This document shows, one piece after another, positions 27,818-51,571 of a DNA stretch of 64,000 nucleotides. How positions within the stretch are numbered: position 1 is the first letter of the stretch; every line of letters begins with the position of its first letter. The stretch is from Candidatus Gastranaerophilales bacterium (GTDB lineage Bacteria > Cyanobacteriota > Vampirovibrionia > Gastranaerophilales > Gastranaerophilaceae), in contig CALVEG010000005.1 in the NCBI GenBank assembly GCA_944326525.1, positions 1 through 64,000 of the forward strand, in the 5' to 3' direction. Position numbers and translations under genes: made by a program. Below the pieces are notes generated by a model, which saw only the letters and a program-made list of their open reading frames with translations, made no database searches and was not told the DNA's origin.

Positions 27818-28060
27818 ATGGATTCAGACAATCAACAATTCGGTTATTCCGAAGATTTAATAGCGGAACTAGAATATAAACTTGGAGATTTGTTATCTCA
27901 CATTAAACTATTATCCAATGCGACCGTCGGATTGGGAGCAGATTTTTCATTCGATATTAAAGATATCAATTCGATTAGTCAAACACTTCATGATAAGGCG
28001 GTCAATTCTCTTTTTGTGGTTGAAAAATTAAAAGCTTCTTTAGGGCATTTAAGTGTTTAA
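27818..28060 (+). CDS. Small helical protein, convergent with fliI
   Basis: An 80-residue acidic, helical protein (ELEYKLGDLLSHIKLLSNATVGL; then SISQTLHDKAVNSLFVVEKLKASL). Its stop codon overlaps the end of fliI by 4 bases on the opposite strand. The gene has a perfect promoter, but only a weak CAGG ribosome binding site. Small size and all-helix character recall export chaperones, but no sequence evidence supports that. Unknown function. Confidence 0.55.
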   Translation: MDSDNQQFGYSEDLIAELEYKLGDLLSHIKLLSNATVGLGADFSFDIKDINSISQTLHDKAVNSLFVVEKLKASLGHLSV

Positions 28061-30999: not shown

Positions 31000-31497
31000 A
31001 TGAAAAGAATTATACTTCACTGGACGGGCGGAGGGTATTATCCTACGGCTGTTGAGAAAGAATATTACCATTTTTTGGTAGATGCAGAAGGTAGAGTTTA
31101 TAAGGGGAAATTTCGACCGGAGGACAATCTTGTTTGCAAGCCTCATAGTTATGCTGCGCATACGGGCGGTGGTAATACAGGTTCAATTGGTATTGCGTTG
31201 TGCGGAATGCAGGGGTATAAGGATTGTCGGGTTGTTGGCAAGTACCCAATCACTCTTGCACAATTTGAGAAGGCTATGAAATTAGCTGCATATATTGCTT
31301 GTAAATATAAGCTGGTTGTTGATAGAACAACGGTTATGACACATTACGAATTTGGAATAAAGCATCCTGCTACTTCAAGTTATGGCAAGCCGGATATAAC
31401 TTTTATTCCAGCATACCCTTGGGTAAGTAAAAATGAAGTCGGAGATTTTATCCGCTCAAAAATAAGGTGGTACAAAACAAAAATGAAAGAGGTTTAG
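31000..31497 (+). CDS. N-acetylmuramoyl-L-alanine amidase (endolysin type)
   Basis: A 165-residue Amidase_2/PGRP-fold enzyme that cuts the amide between muramic acid and the peptide stem. Zinc-site features: LHWTGG at residues 6-11, the HSYAAHTGGGNTGSIGIALCG block (split over about 49-69) and a late KHPATSSYGKPDI segment (about 126-138). It has no signal peptide, as in phage endolysins, which rely on a holin. An AAAGGACA site precedes the ATG. It stands in front of the structural genes, an unusual place for a lysis gene. Confidence 0.88.
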   Translation: MKRIILHWTGGGYYPTAVEKEYYHFLVDAEGRVYKGKFRPEDNLVCKPHSYAAHTGGGNTGSIGIALCGMQGYKDCRVVGKYPITLAQFEKAMKLAAYIACKYKLVVDRTTVMTHYEFGIKHPATSSYGKPDITFIPAYPWVSKNEVGDFIRSKIRWYKTKMKEV

Positions 31498-31499
31498 TT

Positions 31500-33023
31500 A
31501 TGGAAACAGATTATTACAATTTATCAGGCGGAATTAATCTTGCGCTAACTAAAACAGAACTCGGAATTGACACAAAAAAAATGTACTGGTCAGACAGCAA
31601 AAATGTTGAAATATACAAAAACCGAGGAGTTTCAAAACAATTGGGAAATACCCAGATTTGTGCAGTTCCGAATAATGAAGCCATAACAGGACTTCATGAA
31701 ATGTTTTATAGGGATGATTCTAAGCTTGTTATAACAACAGAATCCGGAAAAATTTATGTTTTTAACCCGATAAATAATGCTATGACATTGTTAAGTTCAA
31801 AAACATTAAAAGGTAAAAAACCGCGATTTGCATCATTTTTAAACGGTGTACTTTGCATAACAGAAAGTGATGGTTTGTTTTATATAAAAAATGATTCAAC
31901 GTATAGTGTTGTAGATTGTAACTTAAAAAATTCATCAGGCTTAACAGTAACAGGAGATGTTTTAACCGTTTACAAAAGCCGAGTGTGGGTTGCAAGTCAG
32001 TCAACAATATATTATTCAGCGCTTGGAACTTATAATGATTTTACAAGTGATGATGATGCCGGTTATATAAGTGATTTTCATACAGATACTGCGGAAATTA
32101 CGGCATTAAAGTCTTATAAGGATTATTTAGCGATTTACAAAAAAGATAAAGTATATCTTTTGACAGGAACGAGTCCTTCAGATTTTGCAATTGTTCCTTT
32201 TGCAGATAGAGGAACTGTAGCACCGAGATGTGTTGCAAATGTAGATAACAAACAGTATTTTTTATCTTCAGGTATTTTTGCTCTTGAGCAGGTTGGCGAG
32301 CTTAACCAAATTCAATTAGGCTCTGAAATTTCACTGAAAATCAGACCGGAATTTGACAGTTTTGATAAAAGTAAGTTGTCGGAATCTATTTGTGTTCATT
32401 ATGAAAATAAAAATCAAATGTGGTTTTTTATACCGTATGCTACACAAGATTATTATCAAACAATTTGGATTAATGATTATGTAAATAAAGCTTGGTACAA
32501 GCGAGTTGTACCTCAAAATATTACAACGGCTGGAATTTTTGAAGATTATGTAATTACGGGAGATGCCAGCGGTAAAATTTACAGAGAAAATTACGGTTCG
32601 ACATTTAACGGAAAAGCGATAGATTTTATGTGGAAATCTCCGTTTTTATCAATAGGTTCTCCTCACCACAGAAAAGTAATAGATGAATTTTACTTTATTC
32701 TTGATGATGCATATGATAATAATTTTAACTTTTCGGTATACAAGGATTATGACAGCCAACTTAGTGATGATCCGGAAAAAATTTATTCGGTTCATTATGA
32801 TCAATTAATCTGGGCAGATGACAATACTTCTGATAATCTTCCTTGTCATTGGACTCCGGACGATGCTGATGTGCCAGTTTGGCCGGCAAACAAGGATGTG
32901 CTTGAAAAGGCAGAAATTTCCGAATCAAATTATGCAATTCAATTATGTGTAGAAGGTTCAGAAGAAAATGAGAATGTTGCAATAATCGGTTTGCAATTTA
33001 GAGAAATTTATAACGATGATTAG
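31500..33023 (+). CDS. Phage beta-propeller tail / DNA-stabilisation-like protein
   Basis: A 507-residue protein. I chose the ATG at 31500 (AAAGAGG site) over an upstream GTG inside the amidase gene. The sequence is a series of beta-strand repeats with YxxGxxxxxF-type blades (LVITTESGKIYVFNP, LAIYKKDKVYLLTG, YVITGDASGKIYREN). It has the overall look of podovirus tail-knob or P22 gp10-like connector proteins. An N-terminal NLSGGINLALTKTELG segment is common in such phage proteins. Function is inferred from fold pattern and position before the coat gene. Confidence 0.65.
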   Translation: METDYYNLSGGINLALTKTELGIDTKKMYWSDSKNVEIYKNRGVSKQLGNTQICAVPNNEAITGLHEMFYRDDSKLVITTESGKIYVFNPINNAMTLLSSKTLKGKKPRFASFLNGVLCITESDGLFYIKNDSTYSVVDCNLKNSSGLTVTGDVLTVYKSRVWVASQSTIYYSALGTYNDFTSDDDAGYISDFHTDTAEITALKSYKDYLAIYKKDKVYLLTGTSPSDFAIVPFADRGTVAPRCVANVDNKQYFLSSGIFALEQVGELNQIQLGSEISLKIRPEFDSFDKSKLSESICVHYENKNQMWFFIPYATQDYYQTIWINDYVNKAWYKRVVPQNITTAGIFEDYVITGDASGKIYRENYGSTFNGKAIDFMWKSPFLSIGSPHHRKVIDEFYFILDDAYDNNFNFSVYKDYDSQLSDDPEKIYSVHYDQLIWADDNTSDNLPCHWTPDDADVPVWPANKDVLEKAEISESNYAIQLCVEGSEENENVAIIGLQFREIYNDD

Positions 33024-33082
33024 CTCCGTTCATTTTTTATAACAGTATTTACACTATTAAGCCAAGAAAGGGAAATGAAATT

Positions 33083-33946
33083 ATGGCAGAAACAAATTCT
33101 TATTCAGTTTTTATTCCGGAAATATGGAGTGCAAAATTGAACAACATGCTTGAAAAAGAGTGTGTAATGCTACAGTGTGTTAACAGAAATTACGAAGGTG
33201 AAATTAAAAATCAGGGCGACAAAGTGAAAATTATAACTCCGGCTCCTGTGACAATTTCTACACTCACAACAAGTTCAATTACATACAATGAATTAGAACC
33301 GACATCAACAGATTTAGTAATTGATCAGAAGAAGTTTTTTGCATTCAAAATCAATGATGTAGCACAGGTTCAGTCAAATTCAGACATTATGGAAGCTCAT
33401 TTACAGAATGCCAAAAATGCTATAGAAGAAGTTCAAGATGCTTATCTTTTATCAATGCACGCAAATGTTGATGAAAACAATATAGTTGGTTCAGAATCAG
33501 TTCCTGTAACACTTGACAAGACTACAATTTATGAAAACTTTGTAAATCTTGCAATGAAACTAAAAGACTCAAATGCGGTAAAAGCAGGAAAGCGTCCTTG
33601 GGTTGTAATTAACCCGCTAGTTGAATCTTATCTTCTTCAAAGTACAGAATTTATCGGAGCAAACAATGTTGCGGATGAAACATTAAGAGAAGGTGCGATT
33701 GGACGAATTGCCGGCATGGATGTTCTTGTAAGTACAAATCTTACACCTGTATCAAACAATTACTATATTATGGCAGGAACAAACGATGCAATAACATTTG
33801 CCTCACAGCTTGCAAGAATTGAAAGTTTGCGAGATAAAGACAGTTTTTCAGATTTAGTCAGAGGTCTGTACTTATACGGTGCAAAAACTGTACAGCCAAA
33901 AGCTTTGGCAAAAATGGTAGTAAAAGATCCGAATGCTGAAGAATAA
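33083..33946 (+). CDS. Major capsid (coat) protein
   Basis: A 287-residue phage coat protein of HK97 fold, P22-coat-like/T7-like class. It shows FIPEIWSAKLNNMLEKE near the N-terminus, VKIITPAPVTI (about 49-59), FFAFKINDVAQVQS (about 89-102), WVVINPLVESYLLQS and AGMDVLVSTNLTP (about 213-225). No prohead protease or delta domain is visible. A GGGAAATG site precedes the ATG. It is followed by a scaffold-like gene rather than preceded by one. Confidence 0.85.
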   Translation: MAETNSYSVFIPEIWSAKLNNMLEKECVMLQCVNRNYEGEIKNQGDKVKIITPAPVTISTLTTSSITYNELEPTSTDLVIDQKKFFAFKINDVAQVQSNSDIMEAHLQNAKNAIEEVQDAYLLSMHANVDENNIVGSESVPVTLDKTTIYENFVNLAMKLKDSNAVKAGKRPWVVINPLVESYLLQSTEFIGANNVADETLREGAIGRIAGMDVLVSTNLTPVSNNYYIMAGTNDAITFASQLARIESLRDKDSFSDLVRGLYLYGAKTVQPKALAKMVVKDPNAEE

Positions 33947-34029
33947 GAATAGAGCAAAAGTTTAAAACTCAAAAGTATTTAGAGGTTTAAGCTTTGTATG
34001 TAAATCCAGAACAAATAGGAGAAAATTAG

Positions 34030-34749
34030 ATGTTAAACAACAATGCAGCAAATCAAATTTCATCGACTGCCGCAGTCCAACAGCAAGGTTTGATGAATAA
34101 TAATCCGATGCAAGGTCAGATTTCGGGTGCAATGTCTGCAATGCCTAACAATACAACGGGTAGTCCTAATGCAATAAGACAAGCATTGATGCGTGATATG
34201 AGTATCATAAACAGTCTTATGCAATCAGGTGTAATAAACTCGGTACAAGGACAACATTTGATGAACTTCATCATAAACAAGGCGCAATTAGAGTCAACAA
34301 GGCAGCCGCAGACACAAACTTTCACCCAGTTGTCGCAAAATCCTCAAACGACAATTCCGCAAGGAGGAATTGTTTACGGGATAGAAGCGTTCTTAAAAGA
34401 AAATCCAGACTTTTTTAACAAGAATGGCAGAAGCCGCGTGTTGGAATATTTAAAGAAATCGAACTCTGTTGTAGACAAAGATGAAATAATGCAGATAGCC
34501 GAACTGGTCGAAGCCCTAGAGCAAAGTGCCGTAGACGGATATTTGCAAACACAGGCGCACGAGAAATCAATAAATGACGAAAACAAGGCCGCCAAAGCGA
34601 AGTTGAGAGCGAATGCACAAAATTCAAATACGGCAGATGCAAATGCGAAGGTATTTACTCGTGAGCAAATCGGCAGAATGAGCGGAGCAGAATTTGCCAA
34701 AAACGAAAAAGCAATAATGGAACAGTTAAGAAACGGCTTAATCCGATAA
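34030..34749 (+). CDS. Phage scaffolding-like protein
   Basis: A 239-residue hydrophilic protein. Residues 1-110 are Asn/Gln/Ser/Met-rich and probably disordered. Residues ~115-200 are charged helix (FLKENPDFF, IAELVEALEQSA). The C-terminus FTREQIGRMSGAEFAKNEKAIM is a basic helical end like coat-binding ends of scaffold proteins. It lies next to the coat gene. An AGGAG site is 10 bases upstream. Identity is inferred from composition, C-terminal motif and position. Confidence 0.65.
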   Translation: MLNNNAANQISSTAAVQQQGLMNNNPMQGQISGAMSAMPNNTTGSPNAIRQALMRDMSIINSLMQSGVINSVQGQHLMNFIINKAQLESTRQPQTQTFTQLSQNPQTTIPQGGIVYGIEAFLKENPDFFNKNGRSRVLEYLKKSNSVVDKDEIMQIAELVEALEQSAVDGYLQTQAHEKSINDENKAAKAKLRANAQNSNTADANAKVFTREQIGRMSGAEFAKNEKAIMEQLRNGLIR

Positions 34750-34769
34750 TAACGGCAAATTTAGAAAAT

Positions 34770-34798
34770 CTTACGGGCGGGTTAAGCCCGTCCGCAAG
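34770..34798 (+). terminator. Hairpin between scaffold and adaptor genes
   Basis: CTTACGGGCGGG pairs with CCCGTCCGCAAG over 12 base pairs (two G-U). The T-tract is weak (ATTTATT), so it may be a processing or attenuation site. Confidence 0.5.
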
Positions 34799-34826
34799 AT
34801 TTATTAAAAGACTCGAGGAGAAAAAT

Positions 34827-35465
34827 ATGAATTATTTTGATTTGGTTAACAAATGTTTGGTTGAACTTAATTACAAACAAGTCAATGCATTTTCCGAATT
34901 AACTAAAAATGATCATAAAAAAATAAAAAACATAATAAATTTGGTAAATACGGAAGTATGTAATTATGACAATTGGGATTTCAAATTAAGGAAAATGACG
35001 ATTAATCTTCCGCCCAAAACATCAGAGTTGGACAATCCTATAGACGGAAGAATAGCATCATTGGTAATAGACGGGCATGTGTACAAATATTTTGACAAAC
35101 CCGAAGTATATATAAATGGGGATGCTCCTTCTAAAACGTGGGGAAGATTTAATGACAAGCTTTTGCTTCCTGAATTTGAAGAAGAAAAAAGTATAAATAT
35201 AGTTTACTACACGGCAAATTCAGCGGTAGACACGGAAGGGAATGAAAAGAAATATTTGGAAAACGAAACCGACAAATCGCTAATTCCGGAAATATTTGCA
35301 GAATCAATTTTGGTTTACGGTACTTGTATGCGCTTAAAGGCAAATCCGCAGCATGTAAAATTCGGATATTGGATGAGCATGTTCAATAGTGCCTTGGCGA
35401 CCATGCGTGCAAAAATTAAAATTGATGCTGAGGCGGCACCCTATGTAAATATGCACAGATACTAG
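34827..35465 (+). CDS. Head-completion/adaptor protein (P22 gp4-like)
   Basis: A 212-residue protein with the pattern of phage head-to-tail adaptors: an N-terminal helical part (FDLVNKCLVELNYKQVNAF; then IKNIINLVNTEVCNYDNWDFKLRK) and a beta-rich middle (IDGRIASLVIDGHVYKYF). A C-terminal helix follows, with SILVYGTCMRLKANPQHVKFGYW. The NxEVxxxxxWDFxxR feature is common in podovirus adaptors. A GAGGAG site precedes the ATG. Role inferred from these features and from the neighbouring coat and portal genes. Confidence 0.65.
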   Translation: MNYFDLVNKCLVELNYKQVNAFSELTKNDHKKIKNIINLVNTEVCNYDNWDFKLRKMTINLPPKTSELDNPIDGRIASLVIDGHVYKYFDKPEVYINGDAPSKTWGRFNDKLLLPEFEEEKSINIVYYTANSAVDTEGNEKKYLENETDKSLIPEIFAESILVYGTCMRLKANPQHVKFGYWMSMFNSALATMRAKIKIDAEAAPYVNMHRY

Positions 35466-35603
35466 GTTTTAGAAAAATTGCATAAAAAAAACAGGAAGTT
35501 TTCATTCCCCCCTGTTAAGATTTACACTAGCCGAAATATAAATAGCAATATTATTATACAATTTTTTTTCAAAAAGTACAAACTTTACTAAGAAATGTAA
35601 ATT

Positions 35604-36038
35604 ATGGACAGATTAACACAACAACAAAAACGATTTGTAATCGAATATATAAAATCGCTGGATGGTGAACTATCGGCGCAAAAGGCGGGATATAAATCTA
35701 AAGATTTGAAATTAATTTCGAATACACTTCTTTCTAACAAGCTTGTAATAAATGAAATAAAAGAGCAGTTAAAGAATCAAATATCGTCATTGAGAGTAAA
35801 CAAAGGTTACGTAATTCAGAAACTTTTGCAGATAGCGGAGTTTTCGCTCGAGGAGGAGGAAGTTCTGGATAAAGAGGGAAACTTGACCGGAAAGAAAAAA
35901 TTACGTGATACATCCGCTGGTTTAAAGGCGTTAGAAAGTCTTTGCAAATATCTTGGATTTAATTCAGATAACGAAGAAACCGAATATAGGCAGGCGAAAA
36001 TTATTACGATTTCAAATCTGGACGATGACAAAATTTAA
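35604..36038 (+). CDS. Terminase small subunit
   Basis: A 144-residue Terminase_2-type protein. LTQQQKRFVIEYIKSLDGELSAQKAGY (split over about 4-30) is the typical N-terminal helix-turn-helix start. VNKGYVIQKLLQIAEF and GLKALESLCKYLGF (about 111-124) match the family's C-terminal helices. It recognises phage DNA and positions the large subunit. It is separated from terL by ~2.7 kb, which is unusual. No clear Shine-Dalgarno sequence precedes the ATG. Confidence 0.82.
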   Translation: MDRLTQQQKRFVIEYIKSLDGELSAQKAGYKSKDLKLISNTLLSNKLVINEIKEQLKNQISSLRVNKGYVIQKLLQIAEFSLEEEEVLDKEGNLTGKKKLRDTSAGLKALESLCKYLGFNSDNEETEYRQAKIITISNLDDDKI

Positions 36039-36056
36039 TAAAGGAGTAGAAGAGAA

Positions 36057-36428
36057 ATGAAAAATAAAGACGAAGATATTGAAGAAATGCTTTTAGGATC
36101 TGCTTCTCTGGATGATTTGATACGAATGAAGATAGAGTCTGAATTCCAAGATGAGATGAAGAAGGCTCAGGAAAATAAGCTAAACAGAGAAAAAAAGATT
36201 TACACAAAAATTTCTGAAGTTCCGAAGGGTTATATTTTTTCAAAACATGCTGTTTTCAAGTATTACAACAGGCATAACAAATTGGAAACCTACATAAACG
36301 GAATTCAAGCGGATGCACTTTTAGGACTTCAAAATAATATCAGAGGAAAAATTTTAAATGGAGAAATGAGTACATTTTCGACAGATGAAGCTTATGTAAA
36401 GTTTGAAAAAGTATGTGTAAATTCTTAA
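36057..36428 (+). CDS. Phage-island protein of unknown function
   Basis: A 123-residue charged protein with an AAGGAG site. The N-terminal 50 residues are acidic/basic helix (EEMLLGSASLDDLIRMKIE). The middle has an IFSKHAVFKYYNRHNKLETYING segment and the C-terminus is beta-like. Its end overlaps the GNAT start by 16 bases, so the two genes are coupled. I do not recognise a family; position between TerS and portal suggests a packaging-linked or accessory role. Confidence 0.6.
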   Translation: MKNKDEDIEEMLLGSASLDDLIRMKIESEFQDEMKKAQENKLNREKKIYTKISEVPKGYIFSKHAVFKYYNRHNKLETYINGIQADALLGLQNNIRGKILNGEMSTFSTDEAYVKFEKVCVNS

Positions 36429-36958
36429 GTTTAGTAATAGATAGAGCGCATTCAAGGTTTGAGAATACGGAATATTTATCAAATGTAGTTTTTTTATATT
36501 TGCGATATTCGAAATTTTTAAACGATGACTATGCGCCGGAGGCAAATTATTCAAATATATTATCGAAAATAGAGAGCTGCGGAGGTTTGTTTTATATAGT
36601 TCTAAATTCATCGGGCAGTGATTTTGCGGGATTTATTTATATAGATAATTTGATAGGAAATGCAGACGAAATTCATGGCGGTGAAATTACGGCTTGTTTT
36701 GAGAAGAAATACTGGGGAAAATTTACAAAAACCGTAGCGGACCAATTTTTTGATTATTGTTTTAACACTTTGAAGTTTAAAAAAATAAAAGCACAAATTT
36801 ATCCGTTTAATTCACGAGTCAGAGCGATATTAAAGTATTCAGGCTTTAAAAAAGACGGGGTTTTGCGCGGGGAAACGATGAAAAACGGCAGATTATCGGA
36901 TGTAGAAGTTTACTCGCTGTTAGCAGAAGATAGAAAATTTGTACGCTTAACAGGATGA
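36413..36958 (+). CDS. GNAT-family N-acetyltransferase of the phage island
   Basis: A 181-residue acetyltransferase fold: FAGFIYIDNLIG (central strands), EIHGGEITACFEKKYWGK (about 90-107) and INSRVRAILKYSGF-like FNSRVRAILKYSGFKKDGVLRG (about 141-162), the usual NxxxxxxxxxxGF end of GNAT domains. The acetyl-CoA P-loop Q/RxxGxG/A is weak. Proteins of this type occur beside portal genes in some podoviruses. The start codon lies inside the preceding gene and the stop overlaps the next possible ATG (ATGA). Confidence 0.75.
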   Translation: MCKFLSLVIDRAHSRFENTEYLSNVVFLYLRYSKFLNDDYAPEANYSNILSKIESCGGLFYIVLNSSGSDFAGFIYIDNLIGNADEIHGGEITACFEKKYWGKFTKTVADQFFDYCFNTLKFKKIKAQIYPFNSRVRAILKYSGFKKDGVLRGETMKNGRLSDVEVYSLLAEDRKFVRLTG

Positions 36959-36969
36959 AAGGTAAAGGT

Positions 36970-38637
36970 ATGAAAATAGAAACCGAAGATTTAACAGCAC
37001 AAATAATGCCGGAAGAAGAAAATTATTTAACGGCAGAAATAACAAAAAAATATGACAAGTATGATGATTTACGGAGTTCGCAGATAGCGGATAACAGGAT
37101 AATGCGAGATGCCATTTATAACAATGACATTCCTCGATTAAACGGCTGGGATGATAAAGTTACGCTGCCTGATATTTATGAATTAGCGCAAACTTTAAAG
37201 GCTCATATAAGTGAAAATTTATATTCACATCCGGAGGCGATGTTTGATGTAACCGGTGCGACTCCTGAAAGTCAAAAGTTTGCAAATAAACAGAAATCAA
37301 TGCTTGTGAACACTTTTGAAAACATGAAACTTGAAGATGAAATCGAAAAAATCATTAACGGGATAGTAGAAACAGGTGAATGCACGCTTTTTGTAGGTTG
37401 GGAAACAAAAATTAAGCGTATCAGAAGGGTTTTAAGCTTGCAGGAACAGTTGGAAGATCCTCTTAACAGACCGTTTACGATAGAAGAAAAAATTGTTTAT
37501 GACAATGCGAAAGTGAAATATATAAAGCCGGAAGATTTTGTCTTTGACACAACTGACCGTGACAATTGGGACAGATGCGCAAAGATTTATAGAACATATT
37601 CTACGTTTGACGAAATTTGTTCAGACAAATCGAATAATATGCTGACGGAAGAAAAATTAGAGAAGTTGAAAGGAGTGGTGGCAGGTAAAAAATCAAGAAC
37701 TTATGATAAATCGGTATCCGAAAACAAATTGGAAATACTGGAGTATTGGGGCGATATAGAACTTTCAAATGGTAAATTGCTGAAAAATTGGCTTGTAACG
37801 GTAGCGGCAAGACAAGAAATAATAAGATTTGAACCAAATCCGTTTGTAATTAATCCTTTTATTTATGCGAACATAATCGAATCTCCGTCGACAGGTAGAG
37901 GAATTTCGCCTTTGAGGGTAGCACTGATTTTGAACAATATATCATCGACGATTTTAAACAAGCAGATAGATGCACTTGCTTTAACCATGAATCCTCCGTA
38001 TTTGGCTCCAAAAGGTTCATTTAGCGGGGAACAAGTTGTTAAACCAGGTAAAATTATCGAATATGATTCAGCCTTAATGCCGAACCAGCCGATACCTTTG
38101 AATTTTGACAAAGCTATGGTCGGATGGGATTTCTTAAATTACTTTAAATCAACTATAGAAAGTGCGACGGGAATTTTCAAAAATATGGCCGGCAACACTC
38201 AATCGACGGCAAGAACTGCGACAGAGCTTAATTATTCTGCAAATGGTCAGGAAGCGAGATTGAATATGCTGCTAGATGCGATAAACAGAAAAGTAATAGT
38301 TCCGATGGTAGAAAAAACAGCCGACATAATAGCTAACTTTAAACTCGGAACAGAGCTTATCGGGATTTATGATAAAGGTGAAGTTTCGTTTTTAGAAATT
38401 GATGATAAAATCCGAAATGGCAGCTACATTTACCGATATGGTGACAGGAAGGCATCATTTGAGAGAAAAATGCGCTTAAAAGAGCTTTTTGAAGTTGTTA
38501 AATCATTTGCGGAAGTTCAAGAAGTTTCGCAAAAGGTAGATTGGTTAGAGTGTTTCAAATTCGCGCTGGAACAATACGGAATAGAAAATGCAAATAATTT
38601 TTTGAAAAGTGAAGAAGTTTCAGCGGATAAACAATAG
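36970..38637 (+). CDS. Phage portal protein
   Basis: A 555-residue protein (from the ATG with AAAGG 7 bases upstream; an alternative ATG at 36955 overlaps the GNAT stop). Portal features of the podovirus type: RIMRDAIYNNDIPRLNGWDDKVTLPD near the N-terminus (split over about 40-65), NPFIYANIIESPSTGRGISPL (about 298-318), the wing/clip region with ALTMNPPYL, and MAGNTQSTARTATELNYSANGQEARL (about 412-437). The dodecameric portal forms the DNA channel through which terminase packages the genome. Confidence 0.85.
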   Translation: MKIETEDLTAQIMPEEENYLTAEITKKYDKYDDLRSSQIADNRIMRDAIYNNDIPRLNGWDDKVTLPDIYELAQTLKAHISENLYSHPEAMFDVTGATPESQKFANKQKSMLVNTFENMKLEDEIEKIINGIVETGECTLFVGWETKIKRIRRVLSLQEQLEDPLNRPFTIEEKIVYDNAKVKYIKPEDFVFDTTDRDNWDRCAKIYRTYSTFDEICSDKSNNMLTEEKLEKLKGVVAGKKSRTYDKSVSENKLEILEYWGDIELSNGKLLKNWLVTVAARQEIIRFEPNPFVINPFIYANIIESPSTGRGISPLRVALILNNISSTILNKQIDALALTMNPPYLAPKGSFSGEQVVKPGKIIEYDSALMPNQPIPLNFDKAMVGWDFLNYFKSTIESATGIFKNMAGNTQSTARTATELNYSANGQEARLNMLLDAINRKVIVPMVEKTADIIANFKLGTELIGIYDKGEVSFLEIDDKIRNGSYIYRYGDRKASFERKMRLKELFEVVKSFAEVQEVSQKVDWLECFKFALEQYGIENANNFLKSEEVSADKQ

Positions 38638-38701
38638 AGTTTTGTGTAAAAAAGATCCTCATGTGTTTATTAGTTATTGACATCATTATGACTCTCTTAG
38701 C

Positions 38702-38753
38702 GGGTGCCGTTTAAAATTCTTGCACTTAAAACACTTGTTGCGGCACCCTTTTC
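38702..38753 (+). terminator. Hairpin between portal and terL
   Basis: GGGTGCCG (38702-38709) and CGGCACCC (38741-38748) form a perfect 8-base-pair stem with a 31-base loop and run into TTTTCC. It suggests that terL can be transcribed apart from portal. Confidence 0.5.
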
Positions 38754-38796
38754 CTTAAATGGGAGCGTTTCTTCATTTGCTGAAAAGGAAAGGAAA

Positions 38797-40086
38797 ATGA
38801 AATACAAATTATTAAAAGCGCAGCGGGAATTTTTGGAAATCCCGCATAATTATACATTGGATGTGGCTGTTTACCAAGGCGGATATGGTTCTGGAAAAAC
38901 TTTTGCGGGATCACTTCTTGGAATTTTGCTTTGTTTAAAATTCCCCGGAATAAGAGGGCTTGTTGGGGCGCAGACTTATACTCTTGTGAGGGACACAACA
39001 CTTCAGACATATTTTGAACATTTTGAGAATATGAATTTTCAGGAAGGTATAGATTTTGAATGGTCGTCCTCATTGCAGAAACTTACGTTTCATAATGGCA
39101 GCGAAATCCTTTTTAGACATTTTGATGAGCCTAATAAGTTGAAATCCTTGAACTTAGGTTTTGTAGAAATAGAGGAAATGTCGGATATTCCTTATGACAC
39201 ATTTAAAATGCTATTAAGCAGAATGCGCCAGCAAAAAAAGCCTGAATGGAAGAATTTTACATATCGAATTTTTGCCCACACAAACCCTGAAATGCAAAGA
39301 GGATGGGTGTATAAGACATTCGTAGAGAATCCTTCTCCAAATTACAGACTGATAACAGCACCGACGACACAGAATATATATCTTCCAGACGGCTTTTGCG
39401 AGGAGTTGAAAAAACTTTATGATGAAGAATATTACAACATTTTTGTTTTAGCCCAAAACGGGGAATATAATAAAGGACTTGTCGTAAAGGATTTTACGGA
39501 CGAAAATTTACGTGATATTCAATACTGTCCAGATATGGATCTTCACATAAGCTGTGATTTTAACGTGGATCCGATGGCTTGGGTTTTGGCTCACAAAACC
39601 GAGGATAAAGTTTTTTATTTTGATGAAATTGTAATGGAAAACACGACAACATCTCATGCGTGTGACGAGTTTTGCAGACGCTACCCGAACCATAAAGGAA
39701 AAATCATAATAAACGGCGACGCTTCAGGTGATAACCGTTCTTGTACAAGCGAATACACCAATTACGTAATAATAAAGAAAAAACTTTTACGAGCAGGATA
39801 TGACGTAGAAATTAAGATAAAAGCCTTCAATCCTCCGATAAAAAACAGAATAGCGGCATTCAATGCGAAAGTTCGGACAGCAGACGGGGAAGTTTGCCTT
39901 TTTGTGGATAAGAAGTGCGAAAAGCTCCTCTACAATATTTACAATCTCAAATACAGAGAAGGTTCTTCAAAAATAGATATTCCGACATATCAGCAGATAA
40001 AACAGACCAAAGAATTAAAATTTTTATCGCATCCGATGGATGCAGCATCATACCTGGTGGATTATTACTGGCCGATAAGACTCTAA
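38797..40086 (+). CDS. terL: Terminase large subunit
   Basis: A 429-residue packaging motor. I chose the ATG at 38797 (AAAGGAAAGG site), since upstream sequence contains the hairpin. ATPase: Walker A GGYGSGKT (about 28-35), Walker B LGFVEIEEMSD (about 118-128), then the coupling motif RIFAHTNPE (about 157). RNase-H-like nuclease: Asp in SCDFNVDPMAWVLAH (about 252-266), INGDASGDNR (about 305-314) and a late Asp in HPMDAASYLVDYY. All catalytic parts appear intact, so the enzyme is probably functional. Confidence 0.9.
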   Translation: MKYKLLKAQREFLEIPHNYTLDVAVYQGGYGSGKTFAGSLLGILLCLKFPGIRGLVGAQTYTLVRDTTLQTYFEHFENMNFQEGIDFEWSSSLQKLTFHNGSEILFRHFDEPNKLKSLNLGFVEIEEMSDIPYDTFKMLLSRMRQQKKPEWKNFTYRIFAHTNPEMQRGWVYKTFVENPSPNYRLITAPTTQNIYLPDGFCEELKKLYDEEYYNIFVLAQNGEYNKGLVVKDFTDENLRDIQYCPDMDLHISCDFNVDPMAWVLAHKTEDKVFYFDEIVMENTTTSHACDEFCRRYPNHKGKIIINGDASGDNRSCTSEYTNYVIIKKKLLRAGYDVEIKIKAFNPPIKNRIAAFNAKVRTADGEVCLFVDKKCEKLLYNIYNLKYREGSSKIDIPTYQQIKQTKELKFLSHPMDAASYLVDYYWPIRL

Positions 40087-40123
40087 AACGTGTAAGAAAA
40101 AGCTTTGCAGAAAGGAATTAAAA

Positions 40124-40837
40124 ATGGTGAATTCAATTGATATAGAGAAATTACATAAAAAAGCCGAAATAATAAAAAGACTTTGTCTTAAAGCAGGCGA
40201 GGCATTAGAAAAGGAAGATAATACAGAGATAATGGATGGCTGGAAAAAGCTTGACGGATTTCACGAGCCGAAAACAAATTTTAAAGGTGTTTTGTATTCG
40301 GACGGACAGGAATACGTAATTTGTTATTTGGGAACAGATTGCAAAAGTGTAAAAGATCATATTGAAAATATAATAATGGGAATTTTTGGAAAGACCCTTC
40401 AAATGCGAATAGCAAATTACTATTACACAAAATGCAAGGAAAAATTTGGGATATATAATGACAAATTGACGTTGGCCGGTCATAGTGAAGGCGGAACGGA
40501 AGCAACTTACACGGGGATAAAAAACAGGGTAAAAGTTATAACTTATAATGTTTATGGTTTAAGCCGCAGACTTTATGACGTTAAAGCAGACTATTCAAAT
40601 CTTGTAACCAATTATCGAGAGGCCTCAGATCTTGTTTCAAAGATGAAAGAGAACCCTGGTCGAACATATATTATTCCAACAGTAGTAAAGCAATGTTTTA
40701 TAAAGCGGATTTTCGGCTCAATAAAATCGCACAGATTAGAAAATTTAGGAGATTGTCAAAATGCAATTCCACTGGAAGAATATATGTTAACTCATCCTCG
40801 TTTTATAAATTCTTATAAATTATTAAAAAAATTATAA
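40124..40837 (+). CDS. Lipase-like alpha/beta-hydrolase protein of the phage island
   Basis: A 237-residue protein with a lipase nucleophile elbow LAGHSEGGTEA (about residues 119-129, Ser in GHSEG), preceded by YVICYLGTDCKSVKDHIENI (about 63-82). This layout matches class-3 lipase or Mbeg1-like phage proteins. A candidate Asp/His partner is not clear. The C-terminal part is basic and helical. There is no signal peptide. An AAAGGA site precedes the ATG. Such a hydrolase might act at lysis or injection, but that is inference. Confidence 0.6.
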   Translation: MVNSIDIEKLHKKAEIIKRLCLKAGEALEKEDNTEIMDGWKKLDGFHEPKTNFKGVLYSDGQEYVICYLGTDCKSVKDHIENIIMGIFGKTLQMRIANYYYTKCKEKFGIYNDKLTLAGHSEGGTEATYTGIKNRVKVITYNVYGLSRRLYDVKADYSNLVTNYREASDLVSKMKENPGRTYIIPTVVKQCFIKRIFGSIKSHRLENLGDCQNAIPLEEYMLTHPRFINSYKLLKKL

Positions 40838-40883
40838 AGCGTATTATCGAGTTGTGGCAGGTGAAGAAGCAAAGGAAAATAAA

Positions 40884-41114
40884 ATGGAATGTTTGTTAAA
40901 TTATGCACCGATTTTAGTTGCAGTGATGATATTTTTAATTCAACAACGAATAGTAATAACGCCGGAACAGTTGGAGAAAAAACACCGTGAAATTATAGAA
41001 GATATAGAAGAAAAGTTTGTTACGATTCACAGTTTTAATGATTTAAAAGAACATTTTGGTGAAATGAAAGAAAAAATAGATAAGATTTATGATTTTATAA
41101 TAACGGTGAAGTAA
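40884..41114 (+). CDS. Small membrane protein with coiled-coil tail
   Basis: A 76-residue protein, started at the ATG at 40884 with AAAGGAAA upstream (a GTG at 40854 is possible). One N-terminal membrane helix (LLNYAPILVAVMIFLIQQ, about 3-20) is followed by a charged helix (LEKKHREIIEDIEEKF) to the end. It closes the phage-like island. Topology resembles single-helix phage membrane proteins (holin- or spanin-like), but sequence alone does not prove a lysis role. Confidence 0.55.
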   Translation: MECLLNYAPILVAVMIFLIQQRIVITPEQLEKKHREIIEDIEEKFVTIHSFNDLKEHFGEMKEKIDKIYDFIITVK

Positions 41115-41256
41115 AAGAAATAAACGAAAAAAGTTAAATGTAAAGAAATGTAAAAAATGCTATAAAAAAGCCGTTATAATTTAAAGTTTACCAAAAGAAA
41201 TACCGAAACACATGGCAAAGAAATGTTACTAGACATGTGAAAGGAAAGCATACTCA

Positions 41257-43005
41257 ATGGGATTGGCAGCAACACAAGCGAGATTTTTAGGCATAACAGC
41301 CAGAAAAGCTAACTGTGAATTTCAATCAATGCAGATAGCTCAGCAAAAGCTGTCACTTACTCGTGAGTTGGAAAAAGCAACTCAAGAATATCAGAGTGCT
41401 TTGAATGCATCAAAACTTATTTGGGATCCGGATGGAAGTGGCGAAAATGTTTATGATTTAAGTTACAATATAATGATGACTCCGTCAGCTGTAAACAACT
41501 TTACTCCATATATGATATCAGCTCGTGATGGAAAAATTGTTTTAAATAGTAAAATGGCAGCAGCAGCGGAAGCCGCAGGTATTCCAAAAGAAGGCTGTGA
41601 TCCGAATGCAGATCCTGATATGTACACTAAATTCTTAAATTATATGGTAAAATTTGGCGGAATGAGTCAATCTCACGCTGATTCTTGTAAAGCTGCAGGT
41701 TTGTTGGAAGATGTTGGTCTTGGTGCTCCATTACTCGATAAAACAACAGCTTCCGAAATGGGTATTAATGATTTACTTGCATATTTGGATATAATGATTT
41801 CAAACGAAAATACATTAAGCGGAGAAGATAAGGCTCTTGTTGATGCTTTGAAATTTAATTTTGGTGTTGGATCTGATGGAAATCCGATTCCGGATTTGAA
41901 TTTGCAAACAGCGTTGGATGATAAGGGTGATGCAAATCAAAACTACTTTGTAGTAAACGGAAATAGAACCTCAGAAACTGAATTTGATTTAACAGATTTG
42001 TTGACTAATGATATTACATTTGCACAAACCGGTGATAAAAACAAGAACGGTTTTTGGAAGAAGATAGTTGCCGGAGTCGCAGCTGCATTTACCGGAGGAT
42101 TTGCATTCTGGACGTATAACGGCATTTTAGATATGTTAAATTACTCAATGGGAGAAATTCCAGAGGGTGGTACTCCTGCTGATATGGCTTTATTATCATT
42201 TTTAGATGAAATGTTTATGGGTTATGCAGAGTTATTGGATATTGAAAATGCAGATAAGACAACACAAAACTCTTTCCAATATGCAATTCAAGAAACCTTA
42301 GCTTTATTAAGTGGTAGCAATGATCTTGGAAATAGAAACCATTCTATAGATGCATTTAATGATGCCGTAAAAGGTGCAAATGATTATAACGGATGGGTTA
42401 CCAAAGGTGCAAATAAAAATAAAAACTATGGTACAAGAGCAATAAGTTTATCAAACTTAGCAGAATCCTTTATGACATTATATGCACAGGCAGAAAACGG
42501 TTTTGATCAGTCATATTATATAAATAAAAGAGCAGATCAATCAAGTTATGTAACAGATGATCCATATTATATGTGGGTAATCGGAGATCCTGATGCAGAA
42601 ACAACAATGGATATGTACGTTGCAGAATTTTACAGTGCATTATTCAATAATATCTGTCAAAACGGATGGGTAGAAAATGAACGAATAGATGATAAAGAAT
42701 ACTTAAGTAACAGCTTATTGAATGCACAATACTTTATAACATCAATGAGCAGCGACAATTATTACTACCAAGACAGATATACAGAGAACGGTTATGTAGC
42801 AGAAGTTACTGATGATGATGCTATAACTCAGGCAGAACTTGCATATACTCTTAAAAAGAACAAGTTGAACAGTAAAGAAGAAGAACTTGATTTAGATATG
42901 CAAAAGCTTGATTTAGAAATATCCGCATTGTCAACTGAATATGAAACAGTTAAACAGATGATCAATAATAACGTAGAAAAAACATTTACAATGTTCAATT
43001 CATAG
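41257..43005 (+). CDS. Protein with paired terminal helices, possible surface or axial protein
   Basis: A 582-residue protein without a signal peptide. The N-terminus (MGLAATQARFLGITARK, then FQSMQIAQQKLSLTRELEKA) is a long amphipathic helix. The C-terminus (AELAYTLKKNKLNSKEEELD, then LDLEISALSTEYETVKQMIN) is a long helical coil ending NVEKTFTMF. In between is a soluble region with a Gly/Ala-rich hydrophobic stretch (KKIVAGVAAAFTGGFAFW, about 269-286). Terminal helices that pair around a variable middle are a hallmark of flagellin/hook-type axial and some type III export substrates, which lack signal peptides. That relation is inference. GAAAGGAAAG is the likely ribosome binding site. Confidence 0.6.
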   Translation: MGLAATQARFLGITARKANCEFQSMQIAQQKLSLTRELEKATQEYQSALNASKLIWDPDGSGENVYDLSYNIMMTPSAVNNFTPYMISARDGKIVLNSKMAAAAEAAGIPKEGCDPNADPDMYTKFLNYMVKFGGMSQSHADSCKAAGLLEDVGLGAPLLDKTTASEMGINDLLAYLDIMISNENTLSGEDKALVDALKFNFGVGSDGNPIPDLNLQTALDDKGDANQNYFVVNGNRTSETEFDLTDLLTNDITFAQTGDKNKNGFWKKIVAGVAAAFTGGFAFWTYNGILDMLNYSMGEIPEGGTPADMALLSFLDEMFMGYAELLDIENADKTTQNSFQYAIQETLALLSGSNDLGNRNHSIDAFNDAVKGANDYNGWVTKGANKNKNYGTRAISLSNLAESFMTLYAQAENGFDQSYYINKRADQSSYVTDDPYYMWVIGDPDAETTMDMYVAEFYSALFNNICQNGWVENERIDDKEYLSNSLLNAQYFITSMSSDNYYYQDRYTENGYVAEVTDDDAITQAELAYTLKKNKLNSKEEELDLDMQKLDLEISALSTEYETVKQMINNNVEKTFTMFNS

Positions 43006-47041: not shown

Positions 47042-50000
47042 TTAAACTAAAACAAGAAGGTTATTAGTATTAATTTTTTTCGGATCAATTTTTGGGTAAG
47101 TTACAGGTCCGATAATTTTGGGAGGTTTTGAATATAATGTAAGTGTCGGATCTGAGAAGTTTATAGATTCATCAGCATAGTTTCCATTTCCTTTGTAAAC
47201 CAATTTTTTGATGAAAAATCTTCCGTTAAATTCTCTTACTACATAACGATCTTGTTTATCTTTAGCATTATAAAGAATTGTTCCCGGAGTTAAACCTTTT
47301 GTCATTTTGCGCGGATCGTCATTGTTTATGCTGTTCAAATTAATACTGTCAAGAGTTACATTATGCGGGTTGTAATCACCATCAAATGTATGATTTATTC
47401 CTGAAGTGTTAATTAAAGAAATTACAACAGAATTATCTGTTCCTTGTCGCAAAATAGCGGATAAATCAATATTTCTTCCATCGCACTGACCGTTTTGAAT
47501 GTCTAAAAGGAACGGTGCACCGTCATTAAGAGCGTGAAGCTCAGGACGGTTACGCATTGTAAGAGTTTTGTTTAACTTATCGTAATGCTGTTGGATAAAT
47601 TTAAAATCAGTATTCCTTTCATCAAGCCATTCATTGTGGATGTAACCTCTGTTTCTAAGGTATAAGTTTTTAGTTTCAGATTCATACCCAGTTGCACCGA
47701 TATCGTCACCTGCATATAATGTTGGCATACCAGGTAAAACTGTAAGAACTTCCATCATAGCTTGAAGTTTTTTAAGTGCCGGAGCCAAAGCTTTTTCTAC
47801 GGTTATGTTCTTAAGATCTGTAATTTCAGAATCAGAAAGTTTGATTTTGTTCATATATTGAACTTCATCTATTACAAGATCAATTGCAACATCAACAGGG
47901 TTTACGCCAAATCCGTCAGCTTCAAAATTGTTACCTTTATAAGAACCTTTAGCAAGATTTGCCAGAGCTTTATTAATAGCATCTTCAAGTTGCTTAGCTC
48001 TTTCCGGATAATTTGCATATTTTTCGCTAATCATTTTATGGAATGCTGCGTGTAATGCTTCAGCCATAGCAAGTGCTTTTCCGCTTGCATTTTCAAGACT
48101 GTGAGAATTGTTAAATAAGTCTATTCTTTCTTTAAAGTCTTGGTCACTTTCGTTGTAAGCTTTATTTACCAAATCTCTGTCATAAGTTCCGGTAAGAATA
48201 CGATATGCTCTGTTTCTGTAATCTTTGTTTTGAATATCACCAAGTTTTGTTCTATACCATCCTGAATCTACCACAAGTCCGTGTAAAACTCTTGGTTTAT
48301 CGTGGTTGCCGATAAAGTTGTAAGAGTTCAAGATAGCTTCATAAGGCATATTATTGAAAAATCCTGCAGATTTATCGTGCATTCTGTGGCTTAGATCAGG
48401 ATTGAATCCGTCAGAGCCTTGTTTGTCATTGTTATCAAAGTGGTTTGCAAACAGGTTAAGAATAGATGAGAAATATGATGAGTAATTGGCTGTAGATTTT
48501 ATACCTGATTCTCGAAGCAATTTCTTAACCATTTCATTTGAATTTGCATATTTTCTTGAACTGTTATTGCTTGCGCTAAAGAATTTACCTTCATCTGTAA
48601 TTTCAGCTACAATGTAGGCATTTCTATTTTTAGAGTAAACTGCGCCAGCCCAATTCTTCCAGAAATTAGTGACTTCGCTCCACATTTCGTCAAGTCTTTC
48701 TGTACCTGCTTTAAGAGCGTTCATATCACCGATATCTTTTGTTGCGTCAATTCTCCAGTCAAGACCTGCGTTTAATCTGTCTGTAATCATTTCAGCAAGC
48801 ATAAAGCTGTTTTCGTTTGTTCCTTTTAGTGATTTGAAAATAGCATCAACAAGTAATTTTTTATCATCCTTGTTTAATTTTTTCAAACCTGATCTTAGTT
48901 TTGATATTACTTGATCAGCTTCATCTTCAGGGCCTGCTGCAGATACAACTCCTATTGACTGAAGGGTTGTTTTCTTTAGAGCTTCGTAATCGTATGAGAT
49001 TTCACCTGTTTTTTTATCAACTTTTACTTCAGTATTTGGTGCCAAAGCTTTAATGATAGCGTATTTTGCTATAGTTTCGGCAATATATGGCATAACATAT
49101 TTGCCGTATGTTGAAACTTTGTATCCGCTATAAATTTGTACATCTTCAGGAAGTGTTGCATTTAAGTTATTAATTATTTCATTTGCAAATTCAGAAAGTT
49201 CTTTTTCATAAATTCTGTCCATACGTTTGTATGTGGATTCGTATTCCGGAAGAAGATGCGGATTGCCGTTTACATACATTTCATATCTTGTTTTGCCAAG
49301 TGTATTAGCATCAATTGCTCGTTTTGAAATATATGGACTTGCTAATACTGATGCAAGGTTATCGCCAAATTCAATACTATCAAGTGGTAGATTCATTAAA
49401 TTTTGAATTAAATATTTTTTATATTCAGTTTTAGGTAAAGGTTTTAGCTCATAAATACCTGAAAGAACATTATCAACTATTTGAGGATTGATTTCACCTT
49501 TTAATTTTTTAGGGAAATTGCCATTTTTAATATTATTTAGAATATTAATATATGCCTTAGTCGGGTTATTAGCATCGATTCCTGTAAGTTGTTGAGCAAC
49601 ATAAAGATTCAGGATATCACTTGTTTTTTCTGTCCAATACATGCCCGATTGGATTGCGTAATCTTGTACGCCGTAATTGCTGTGAATAACCTTTGACTGG
49701 TATTCTTCTTGTTCACTTCTTGGTATATGTAATTTTTGATATTTTGTATCTTCTTTGGTGTACAAATATTTTAATTTTGGAATATCAGTGTTTGCATCCC
49801 AAGTTGAAATTTTACTTTCAATTTTTTCTTCAAGTTCAAATGTTCTGAACTTTGATAAAAATCTTGTTCCCATATAACTGTCAAGTTTGATTAAGCTATG
49901 AAGTTTTTTCAAGTTATATGTTAGTTTTTGTTCCTGTGCATCGCTCATTTTCAGATCATATTCTTTTTTCGCGCGAGCCATAATTAAATCAATTTTTTGA

Positions 50001-51445
50001 GCGTATTTTTTATCGCCGTCTTTTTCTTCGACGTCTTCCGTTGCTTTATCAAGAATATTTTTTACTTCTATATTCCTTTGAGCATCAACATCTGATGGAA
50101 ATACTTCATCAACTGCCTTCATAATAGCTTTATGCATATTAACCGGAGGCTGTTTTGAAACATTAGAGTTGTGCTCAATAAGTTTTTTAATGTTTTCGTT
50201 ATAATCATCAGGATTAATTTCAAAAGCATAAGGAATAACGATATCGTTATGAGTATTGATATCCAGAGGGTTTTCAGGATTTATTATATCATATTCTTTT
50301 ATCAAATATTGTGGATCTTCTGCAAGTTTCTTAGAAACAACTTTGTTGTTATAAATTTGGAAGAATGTAGGTTGATTAGCTTTATACTTTTTATTTATAC
50401 TAATTGAAATTTTTCCGGTTTTTTCATCTTGAGAATAGACATATTTAGGGTTTACGACTTTGTGGCGGATATTAGCGTTATTTTTACCAAAAACGCCAAG
50501 GGTGAAGGCTCCGTCTTTAAGGTTGTTTGCATCAAACCACAAGAAATACGGTGATTTTTCTCCCCATTTAAGTACGTTTTGGAAGTGAATACCTTCAAGT
50601 CCTTCGTTTACGTAAGCACCGTCAGATACAAAATTTATACCTTTTTTAAACATTTCTCTTTGCAAAGAGGCATAGTTGTTAATGTTTCCAAGAGATTGGA
50701 TGATCTGCATACAGTTTTTGTTCCAGTAGCCGTGTGAAGACAGATCATCATCCGTAAATAGAGGGGTAGAGATGATTTTGGAATATCCGTTGAATTTTCC
50801 ATCAATTACATCTTTTTCAATTCCCGCAATATTTCCACCTATTTTATTTGCAAAGTTTTTAACAACACCTCTTAAACCTGCATATTTTGTGTTTTCAATA
50901 ATTTTGCCGTTACTGTCGTAAGTCCATGCCGGATTATAAAAATCAGGCATAAGCAATTTCATCGCACCGATATTATTTGCAGCAGAGCTGTTTGCAGTTA
51001 CAATATTGTATATCTCGTGTCCTTTTTCAGGCGTGCGGAAGTCTATAAAATCACCTGCATCAATTTTATAAGTAGGAATAACGGAGTTGTCATTACGATC
51101 TTTTCCTTTCGGAATTAATACATAATGATAAGCAAAAGCTTGTTTTTCTCTAAGTCCGTAAGAATCTGCTAAATCAATCTTGTTTCCGCCGGGATTAAGT
51201 TTAAAATTCCCATCAGGCGAATTTTGATTTTTTAACCCTTCGGTAATGTAATAATTTTGGTGTTTATCTGCTGCAACTTTGCAGATCTCAAGATAACAAT
51301 CATATTTGCTTGCGTCATACGGGTAGTTGAATTCATAAACCAATTCACCGTACGAATTCTTCGTTGTGTTATAACCTTCAAAACTTACAGCTTTGTTGTT
51401 GTATTGTTTTTTGTTATTTAAATTAAGATCAAAATTAACTTTCAC
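47042..51445 (-). CDS. Giant GH13 (alpha-amylase family) protein with N-terminal signature
   Basis: A 1,467-residue protein. I start at the GTG at 51445, 5 bases after AAGGAG; a GTG two codons earlier touches that site. The start then reads M-K-V-N-F-D-L ... V-S-F-E-G, the recurring signature. A beta domain (~30-125) precedes the TIM barrel. GH13 regions: I FVSDGAYVNEG (about 270, Glu instead of the usual His), II GLDWRIDATKD (about 893, nucleophile Asp), III AYIVAEITDEG (about 943, acid/base Glu) and IV NFIGNHDKPR (about 1042). Regions I and II are ~620 residues apart instead of ~100. A C-terminal beta domain ends the protein. It probably acts on glycogen-type glucans. Confidence 0.8.
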   Translation of the reverse strand: MKVNFDLNLNNKKQYNNKAVSFEGYNTTKNSYGELVYEFNYPYDASKYDCYLEICKVAADKHQNYYITEGLKNQNSPDGNFKLNPGGNKIDLADSYGLREKQAFAYHYVLIPKGKDRNDNSVIPTYKIDAGDFIDFRTPEKGHEIYNIVTANSSAANNIGAMKLLMPDFYNPAWTYDSNGKIIENTKYAGLRGVVKNFANKIGGNIAGIEKDVIDGKFNGYSKIISTPLFTDDDLSSHGYWNKNCMQIIQSLGNINNYASLQREMFKKGINFVSDGAYVNEGLEGIHFQNVLKWGEKSPYFLWFDANNLKDGAFTLGVFGKNNANIRHKVVNPKYVYSQDEKTGKISISINKKYKANQPTFFQIYNNKVVSKKLAEDPQYLIKEYDIINPENPLDINTHNDIVIPYAFEINPDDYNENIKKLIEHNSNVSKQPPVNMHKAIMKAVDEVFPSDVDAQRNIEVKNILDKATEDVEEKDGDKKYAQKIDLIMARAKKEYDLKMSDAQEQKLTYNLKKLHSLIKLDSYMGTRFLSKFRTFELEEKIESKISTWDANTDIPKLKYLYTKEDTKYQKLHIPRSEQEEYQSKVIHSNYGVQDYAIQSGMYWTEKTSDILNLYVAQQLTGIDANNPTKAYINILNNIKNGNFPKKLKGEINPQIVDNVLSGIYELKPLPKTEYKKYLIQNLMNLPLDSIEFGDNLASVLASPYISKRAIDANTLGKTRYEMYVNGNPHLLPEYESTYKRMDRIYEKELSEFANEIINNLNATLPEDVQIYSGYKVSTYGKYVMPYIAETIAKYAIIKALAPNTEVKVDKKTGEISYDYEALKKTTLQSIGVVSAAGPEDEADQVISKLRSGLKKLNKDDKKLLVDAIFKSLKGTNENSFMLAEMITDRLNAGLDWRIDATKDIGDMNALKAGTERLDEMWSEVTNFWKNWAGAVYSKNRNAYIVAEITDEGKFFSASNNSSRKYANSNEMVKKLLRESGIKSTANYSSYFSSILNLFANHFDNNDKQGSDGFNPDLSHRMHDKSAGFFNNMPYEAILNSYNFIGNHDKPRVLHGLVVDSGWYRTKLGDIQNKDYRNRAYRILTGTYDRDLVNKAYNESDQDFKERIDLFNNSHSLENASGKALAMAEALHAAFHKMISEKYANYPERAKQLEDAINKALANLAKGSYKGNNFEADGFGVNPVDVAIDLVIDEVQYMNKIKLSDSEITDLKNITVEKALAPALKKLQAMMEVLTVLPGMPTLYAGDDIGATGYESETKNLYLRNRGYIHNEWLDERNTDFKFIQQHYDKLNKTLTMRNRPELHALNDGAPFLLDIQNGQCDGRNIDLSAILRQGTDNSVVISLINTSGINHTFDGDYNPHNVTLDSINLNSINNDDPRKMTKGLTPGTILYNAKDKQDRYVVREFNGRFFIKKLVYKGNGNYADESINFSDPTLTLYSKPPKIIGPVTYPKIDPKKINTNNLLVLV

Positions 51446-51571
51446 AAACACTCCTTACTTCCACAATTATAAATATGGTGAATATAATTTTTTGTCAAAA
51501 ACGAATTCAATATTAAGAAAATTTTACATTTATTGGCTATTAATCATGTGCATTTTATAATCTAATTATAG

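Follow-up and report, generated by a model that had tools for sequence, protein, structure and literature searches.

A large all-helical domain between α3 and β4 of the barrel in a divergent GH13 enzyme from a Gastranaerophilales-type genome

Our analysis of a 64,000-nucleotide window (positions 1 to 64,000 of contig CALVEG010000005.1, assembly GCA_944326525.1, Candidatus Gastranaerophilales bacterium) shows that a long gene on its reverse strand encodes a divergent enzyme of glycoside hydrolase family 13 (GH13), in which the catalytic barrel carries an all-helical domain of ∼267 residues between helix α3 and strand β4. The original prediction, made from the DNA alone, was of a GH13 protein with a very long stretch between catalytic regions I and II, and sequence profiles, fold and residue conservation all bear this out. 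What had been taken for a single insert of ∼500 residues, however, turns out to consist of two parts, that is, an enlarged domain B and the helical domain, with conserved sequence region (CSR) V and helix α3 lying between them. We consider it probable (roughly 0.64) that the protein is an active, intracellular, retaining α-glucan enzyme most closely related to neopullulanases and cyclomaltodextrinases, that three of its barrel loops are enlarged, and that the helical domain serves docking, assembly or regulation rather than catalysis. The barrel, the catalytic triad, the position of the insert, its conservation, its order-wide presence and purifying selection were computed as described below.

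Results

Structure prediction, which had been proposed as a check, yielded a GH13-type barrel: the AlphaFold2 model of residues 150–1349 has a mean predicted local distance difference test (pLDDT) score of 90.3 and a predicted template modelling score of 0.88, and 404 of its 1,200 residues align with 2z1k (Z-score 30.4; root mean square deviation (r.m.s.d.) 2.5 Å) as a (β/α)8 barrel of the α-amylase type. The top rows of this sharper fold comparison against the Protein Data Bank (PDB) are neopullulanases, maltogenic amylases and cyclomaltodextrinase-type enzymes, with barrel Z-scores of 26–30 over about 400 residues. The same group provides the strongest profile matches; when a 52-row family alignment (A2) was run as a profile against PDB sequences, maltogenic amylase 1sma ranked first (E 3.1e-24), followed by neopullulanase and cyclomaltodextrinase chains, while NCBIfam and PDB sequence searches with the single protein returned short GH13 stretches only. 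We take the group comprising 1sma, 2z1k, 1ea9 and 1j0h to be subfamily GH13_20. The protein shares with this group (i) the catalytic triad, (ii) an HDxPR motif after β7, and (iii), in part of its positions, a KLN-like CSR-V. It differs in that the NH of CSR-I and the GXR of CSR-II are not kept and no match to the N-terminal domain is recognisable by sequence, and an ordinary member of the group has about 590 residues, a short domain B and no helical domain between α3 and β4.

A second group deserving comparison is malto-oligosyltrehalose synthase, TreY (6lcu, 5zcr, 3hje, 1iv8), which likewise has a GH13 barrel. TreY is the best NCBIfam match of the protein (E 9.4e-6), TreY structures occupy Foldseek ranks 1, 2, 3 and 5, and TreS chains match β8 weakly, so that the protein could be a glucan transglycosylase or isomerase (trehalose-forming or glucanotransferase), in which the enlarged domain B and the changed CSR-I would direct the glucosyl-enzyme to a sugar acceptor. 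The TreY match, however, covers residues 222–325 only and scores 24.1 bits against a cut-off of 498.65 (TIGR02401), the Foldseek alignments are poor (r.m.s.d. about 25 Å; template modelling score by target about 0.4), and the sharper comparison places neopullulanase-type folds first. On these three grounds an identity with TreY was rejected, and we regard a transferase or isomerase of this kind as an unlikely alternative.

The catalytic residues were assessed in a 53-row family alignment, the most distant members of which share only about 21% identity with the query. The Asp, Glu and HD that the original prediction named as catalytic are indeed present, the three triad positions being invariant (Table 1) and accompanied by N1047 (52/53) and H1048 (51/53) in CSR-IV and by Arg898 (53/53) in CSR-II. 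For the neopullulanase group, GH13_20, CSR-V has been given as MPKLN (PMC11239784); here, K557 is found in 52, L558 in 48, N559 in 32 and the preceding P556 in only 9 of the 53 rows. Nine open reading frames (ORFs) from other families of the class (L153–L161) keep the triad in eight cases and the helical insert, judged by alignment, in all nine.

From Asp275 of CSR-I to Asp900 of CSR-II we count 625 residues, in accord with the ∼620 originally reported, and across the 53 rows this distance ranges from 435 to 628 (median 539). The first part of the intervening sequence lies between β3 and α3, begins after CSR-I with a β-rich portion (304–410), and is followed by a CSR-V-like segment (W549...D554-x-x-K557-L558) and by α3, in which W604 and T605 are each present in 53 of 53 rows. 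Relatives in other families of the class show ordinary GH13 text at CSR-V and α3 (KWDGQIDVPKMNMKNPEVRQYIQDAMVYWS). Since CSR-V and α3 are thus recognisable after it, most clearly in these relatives, residues 304–553 are assigned to domain B. Moreover, the sequence from β1 into domain B aligns with that of ordinary GH13 proteins of ∼680 residues from the same order (L096 and L097, cyclomaltodextrinase-like by NCBIfam; profile E 3.4e-20 over 187 columns), which differ in being half as long and in having the NH of CSR-I. In L096 the α3 Trp precedes the nucleophile by 11 residues (W364–D375), as compared with 296 residues here (W604–D900). In this comparison a full-length MAFFT alignment did not place CSR-II of L096 and L097, and the profile segments were significant for β1 to domain B only.

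The idea that the insert might be an ordinary domain B therefore applies to its first part only, the larger helical part coming after α3. One could instead regard residues 306–885 as one giant domain B covering the active site, given the separation of regions I and II and given that a helix at 878–890, directly before β4, could pass for α3. The usual CSR-V and α3 text (W549-D554-K557-L558, NPEV, YW) nevertheless occurs in the middle of the stretch, and the helical-domain profile reaches α3 of neopullulanases at the right place, if only with E-values of 0.34–0.85; we thus judge a giant domain B to be distinctly improbable. As to the character of the insert, its described richness in Lys, Asp and Glu is present but mild (26.2% in 306–885 versus 20.7% elsewhere; 34.4% in 425–520), and the description ‘mostly helical’ holds for about 412–494 and 576–886 but not for the β-rich 304–410. 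A match to Gluconate_2-dh3 within the genus-specific stretch 443–520 (E 0.0058, under its cut-off) was judged to be due to chance. The third enlargement lies between β7 and β8, where the distance from CSR-IV to β8 spans 134–333 residues across the 53 rows. In a check for domain C, three strands were found at model positions 1161–1196 (the model ends at residue 1349).

Table 1. Features of the long GH13 gene and its product. Positions refer to the window; residue fractions are from the 53-row alignment.
Feature	Position	Strand	Details or basis
Coding sequence of the 1,467-residue GH13-like protein	47042..51445	-	GTG start 51445, stop 47042-47044
AAGGAG, probable ribosome-binding site	51451..51456	-	5 bases ahead of GTG 51445; sequence
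N-terminal domain, residues 1-156	50978..51445	-	invariant F22-x-G24; family N-termini, profile
Barrel β1 to β3 with CSR-I, residues 157-303	50537..50977	-	closest to neopullulanase-type GH13
CSR-I Asp275	50621..50623	-	52/53 D, 1 X
Enlarged domain B, residues 304-553	49787..50536	-	250 residues here, against a 53-row median of 164
Additional stretch within domain B, residues ∼426-515	49901..50170	-	∼85 residues; seen in 9 of 10 rows from the same genus (53-row alignment)
CSR-V-like segment, residues 549-559	49769..49801	-	W549 53/53, D554 52/53, K557 52/53, L558 48/53
Helix α3 with YWT605, residues 592-619	49589..49672	-	within 44-residue predicted helix 576-619
All-helical domain, residues 620-886	48788..49588	-	after α3, before β4; 200-300 residues across 53 rows
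CSR-II nucleophile Asp900	48746..48748	-	53/53, in WRIDATKD
CSR-III acid/base Glu948	48602..48604	-	53/53, in AEITD
CSR-IV transition-state stabiliser Asp1049	48299..48301	-	53/53, in GNHDKPR
Third enlargement, β7 to β8, about residues 1056-1220, helical	47786..48280	-	model and 53-row alignment
β8 and C-terminal region, residues 1221-1467	47045..47785	-	profile and AlphaFold2 model (to 1349 only)

When residues 556–885 were folded alone, AlphaFold2 returned a pLDDT of 93.2. None of 75 Foldseek matches of the helical domain in the PDB reached E ≤ 0.001 (best E 1.7), and among 868 PDB chains compared with a second fold aligner, 35 had Z ≥ 2 and none Z ≥ 5 (best Z-score 4.8, over 114 residues). 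Since helical models usually gather far higher Z-scores by chance, the fold looks unusual. The libraries searched hold solved structures, without predicted cellular proteins, and the lack of a match is therefore not proof of a new fold. A profile of the domain matched seven PDB chains at E 0.27–0.85, five of them being GH13 enzymes at α3 and two unrelated, and Pfam applied to 32 segments of the domain returned three families with one member each. The profile found the domain in 87 of 97 genomes of the order; among the matches listed all lie in frames of 820–1,618 residues, without a short stand-alone copy. In comparison with three same-genus relatives, the ratio of nonsynonymous to synonymous substitution rates (dN/dS) of the domain is 0.072, 0.127 and 0.096, near the values for the whole gene (0.075, 0.093 and 0.080), and purifying selection is seen in all segments for which dS could be computed, inserts among them.

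The gene is an uninterrupted ORF of 1,467 codons plus stop and is present as a single copy in its genome. A program-made ORF list opens the frame one GTG earlier, at 51451; we prefer the GTG at 51445 because of the AAGGAG at 51456–51451, the spacing of which agrees better with the start and extent first proposed (47042–51445, 1,467 residues) than with GTG 51451. Among 192 genomes searched within the order, 184 have a match to the single protein at E ≤ 1e-5; a few of these matches, including a pair with E-values of 4.9e-6 and 3.6e-8, probably represent ordinary GH13 proteins. A 14-row profile, run on 386 genomes from the phylum, matched 172; apart from one that belongs to the same class, all of these are members of the order. 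The 52-row profile, run on 382 genomes from the class, matched 297; the weakest of the latter matches (E about 1e-5 to 1e-8, frames of about 560–870 residues) are again probably ordinary GH13. Two further families within the class also have relatives. The search beyond the phylum was slight, comprising one scan of assembled genome contigs with the single protein, which yielded four loci at 57–89% identity (three titled Gastranaerophilales, one ‘uncultured bacterium’), and a plasmid scan, which yielded no match. Conservation over hundreds of genomes, together with the low whole-gene dN/dS, excludes a chance ORF.

Neopullulanases (GH13_20) typically carry an N-terminal CBM34 domain. A profile of residues 1–156 of the present protein found no relative and no GH13 chain among PDB sequences. 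The shared N-terminal signature that had been described stands within the family, F-x-G being invariant in 29 of 29 N-termini, whereas its sharing with other proteins is weakly supported. A loose F.G pattern occurs in 15 of 89 N-termini versus 57 of 705 internal windows. A tighter pattern, picked after looking, is found in 8 of 87 genes of the same genome (shuffled mean 1.9, maximum 7) and in 0 of 47 and 0 of 22 in two other sets, these counts leaving out proteins over 1,150 residues and near-identical N-termini; the signature is therefore not established as a general signal. Unrelated proteins whose N-termini follow the pattern M-x-[VI]...F-[GKQTE], as at 47042–51445, are encoded in the window at 11190–13250, 2753–3457, 7384–7800 and 10281–11105, and elsewhere at L115:4279–4650 and L116:4583–6496.

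Genomic context and additional observations

The gene is solitary: it converges with a ychF-type gene on one side and diverges from a gene for S-adenosylhomocysteine hydrolase on the other. Its genome encodes a GT5 glucan synthase (E 1.3e-69), a short phosphorylase (E 4.5e-14), a GH77 enzyme and other GH13 proteins, and α-glucan metabolism is hence present. Genome-based predictions that these bacteria use starch and glycogen have been published (PMC3787301, PMC4040986). Among 12 loci read for neighbours (L031, L033, L034, L095 and L098–L105), the long gene is adjoined in three (L100, L101, L102) by a GH13-like gene of ∼630 codons, the product of which is 47–51% identical to one encoded in the window’s genome. 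These neighbours belong to a GH13-like family of about 520–640 residues with weak library matches that adjoins the long gene in three genera and has two members elsewhere in the window’s genome (loci noted besides the above three: L117:3383–5128 and L118:2898–4457).

A second, unusually long GT5-like protein is encoded at contig C8:54563–55450 of genome G000, in a 992-residue frame, a normal glucan synthase of 483 residues being encoded elsewhere in that genome. Within the window, a 491-residue protein (13301–14776) matches FlhA-type export proteins over their C-terminal half only (FHIPEP 321–653, E 1.2e-48), and a FliI/EscN-type ATPase is encoded at 28057–29403; other export genes were not recognised among the proteins scanned. 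The region of about 31000–43000 is a phage-like block with an SU10-type portal (36955–38637) and a terminase large subunit (38704–40086).

Discussion

The protein is real and conserved, and it is clearly a GH13 enzyme, yet an ordinary domain B does not account for all of the sequence separating regions I and II. Several observations weigh against the reading of an active, neopullulanase-like enzyme. To begin with, Pfam gives no significant GH13 domain for the single sequence, for which reason we say that profile libraries miss this protein, and in a six-frame search PF00128 matches the frame below its cut-off. Secondly, CSR-II departs from the usual pattern: residue 904, which follows the CSR-II Lys and is His in most GH13 enzymes, is Asp in all 53 rows, and the Gly position of the opening GXR is mostly D, N or E (GLDWR, GLNWR, GLEWR). 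Thirdly, the canonical NH of CSR-I is missing, none of the 53 rows having the His at its ungapped position. At positions 279, 280 and 281 the rows read V 43, T 7, C 2, I 1; N 46, S 6, D 1; and E 47, Q 5, F 1, respectively. The original statement that the His has become Glu is uncertain, since in ungapped profile alignments the canonical His is matched by Asn280 rather than Glu281, and the preceding Asn by Val279. The class member L160, however, has the sequence DGAFVNHG, with NH at 280–281, and as its His occupies position 281 a slip of one residue in the CSR-I alignment is possible, under which the original Glu-for-His statement would stand; it is the sole such case. NH ending CSR-I and GXR opening CSR-II have been described as typical for most GH13 subfamilies (PMC11239784), and since NH is thus typical and not obligatory, membership in GH13 stands. 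Fourthly, a segment-against-segment comparison of the α3 profile with α3 of L096 was not significant (E 0.44), and the assignment of α3 hence depends on the motif, the weak matches to α3 of neopullulanases and the class relatives.

Finally, non-catalytic members exist, because the paralogue L161 has lost all three catalytic residues. L161 (genome G420, contig C29, a 1,344-residue frame) has the same architecture, with CSR-I Asp, nucleophile, acid/base and stabiliser all lost (ASGIFTNQG, WQMNDFAD, LITNLNYDE and QTDLKST at the respective sites), and its genome also encodes a triad-bearing copy, L154. This paralogue, the missing CSR-I His and the fact that the barrel makes up a minority of the protein would fit a catalytically dead, or mainly structural, glucan-binding protein using the GH13 fold as a scaffold. 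Such a role is nonetheless highly improbable for the protein at hand in view of D900, E948 and D1049, which persist in every row of an alignment as diverse as the present one.

We infer activity, substrate and cellular location, as well as where the helical domain sits and what it does, as follows. The active enzyme would act on chains resembling maltodextrin or glycogen through the customary double-displacement mechanism, with D900 as nucleophile, E948 as acid/base and D1049 as stabiliser. It would presumably reside in the cytoplasm; no signal peptide is evident on reading the sequence. Around a normal barrel three loops would be enlarged, that is, domain B (β3–α3), the helical domain of ∼267 residues and the helical β7–β8 stretch, and the helical domain would leave the barrel via a lengthened α3 and return just before β4. 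In the topology of a TIM barrel, loops leading from an α-helix to the next β-strand lie on the face opposite the active site. The helical domain would sit on this far face, and that the placement is deduced solely from barrel topology likewise counts against our reading; because the α3–β4 loop is by topology opposite the active site, a docking, assembly or regulatory role is suggested rather than a catalytic one.

The literature searched, which largely excludes subscription papers, contains nothing describing this protein, nor does it record a GH13 helical domain positioned between α3 and β4. It is tempting to speculate, if at slightly less than even odds, that the protein represents a GH13 subfamily not yet described, limited within the range of our searches to the class of the window’s organism (Vampirovibrionia/Melainabacteria) and distinguished by a ∼267-residue helical domain of unsolved fold at an unrecorded position. 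Few enzyme families have been studied as thoroughly as GH13, and the variation described usually concerns domain B and the binding domains at the termini. A large helical domain on a different loop, conserved among the uncultured gut bacteria of one order, would broaden the view of what the barrel can accommodate, and would provide a target both for a new fold and for the handling of starch and glycogen in these organisms.

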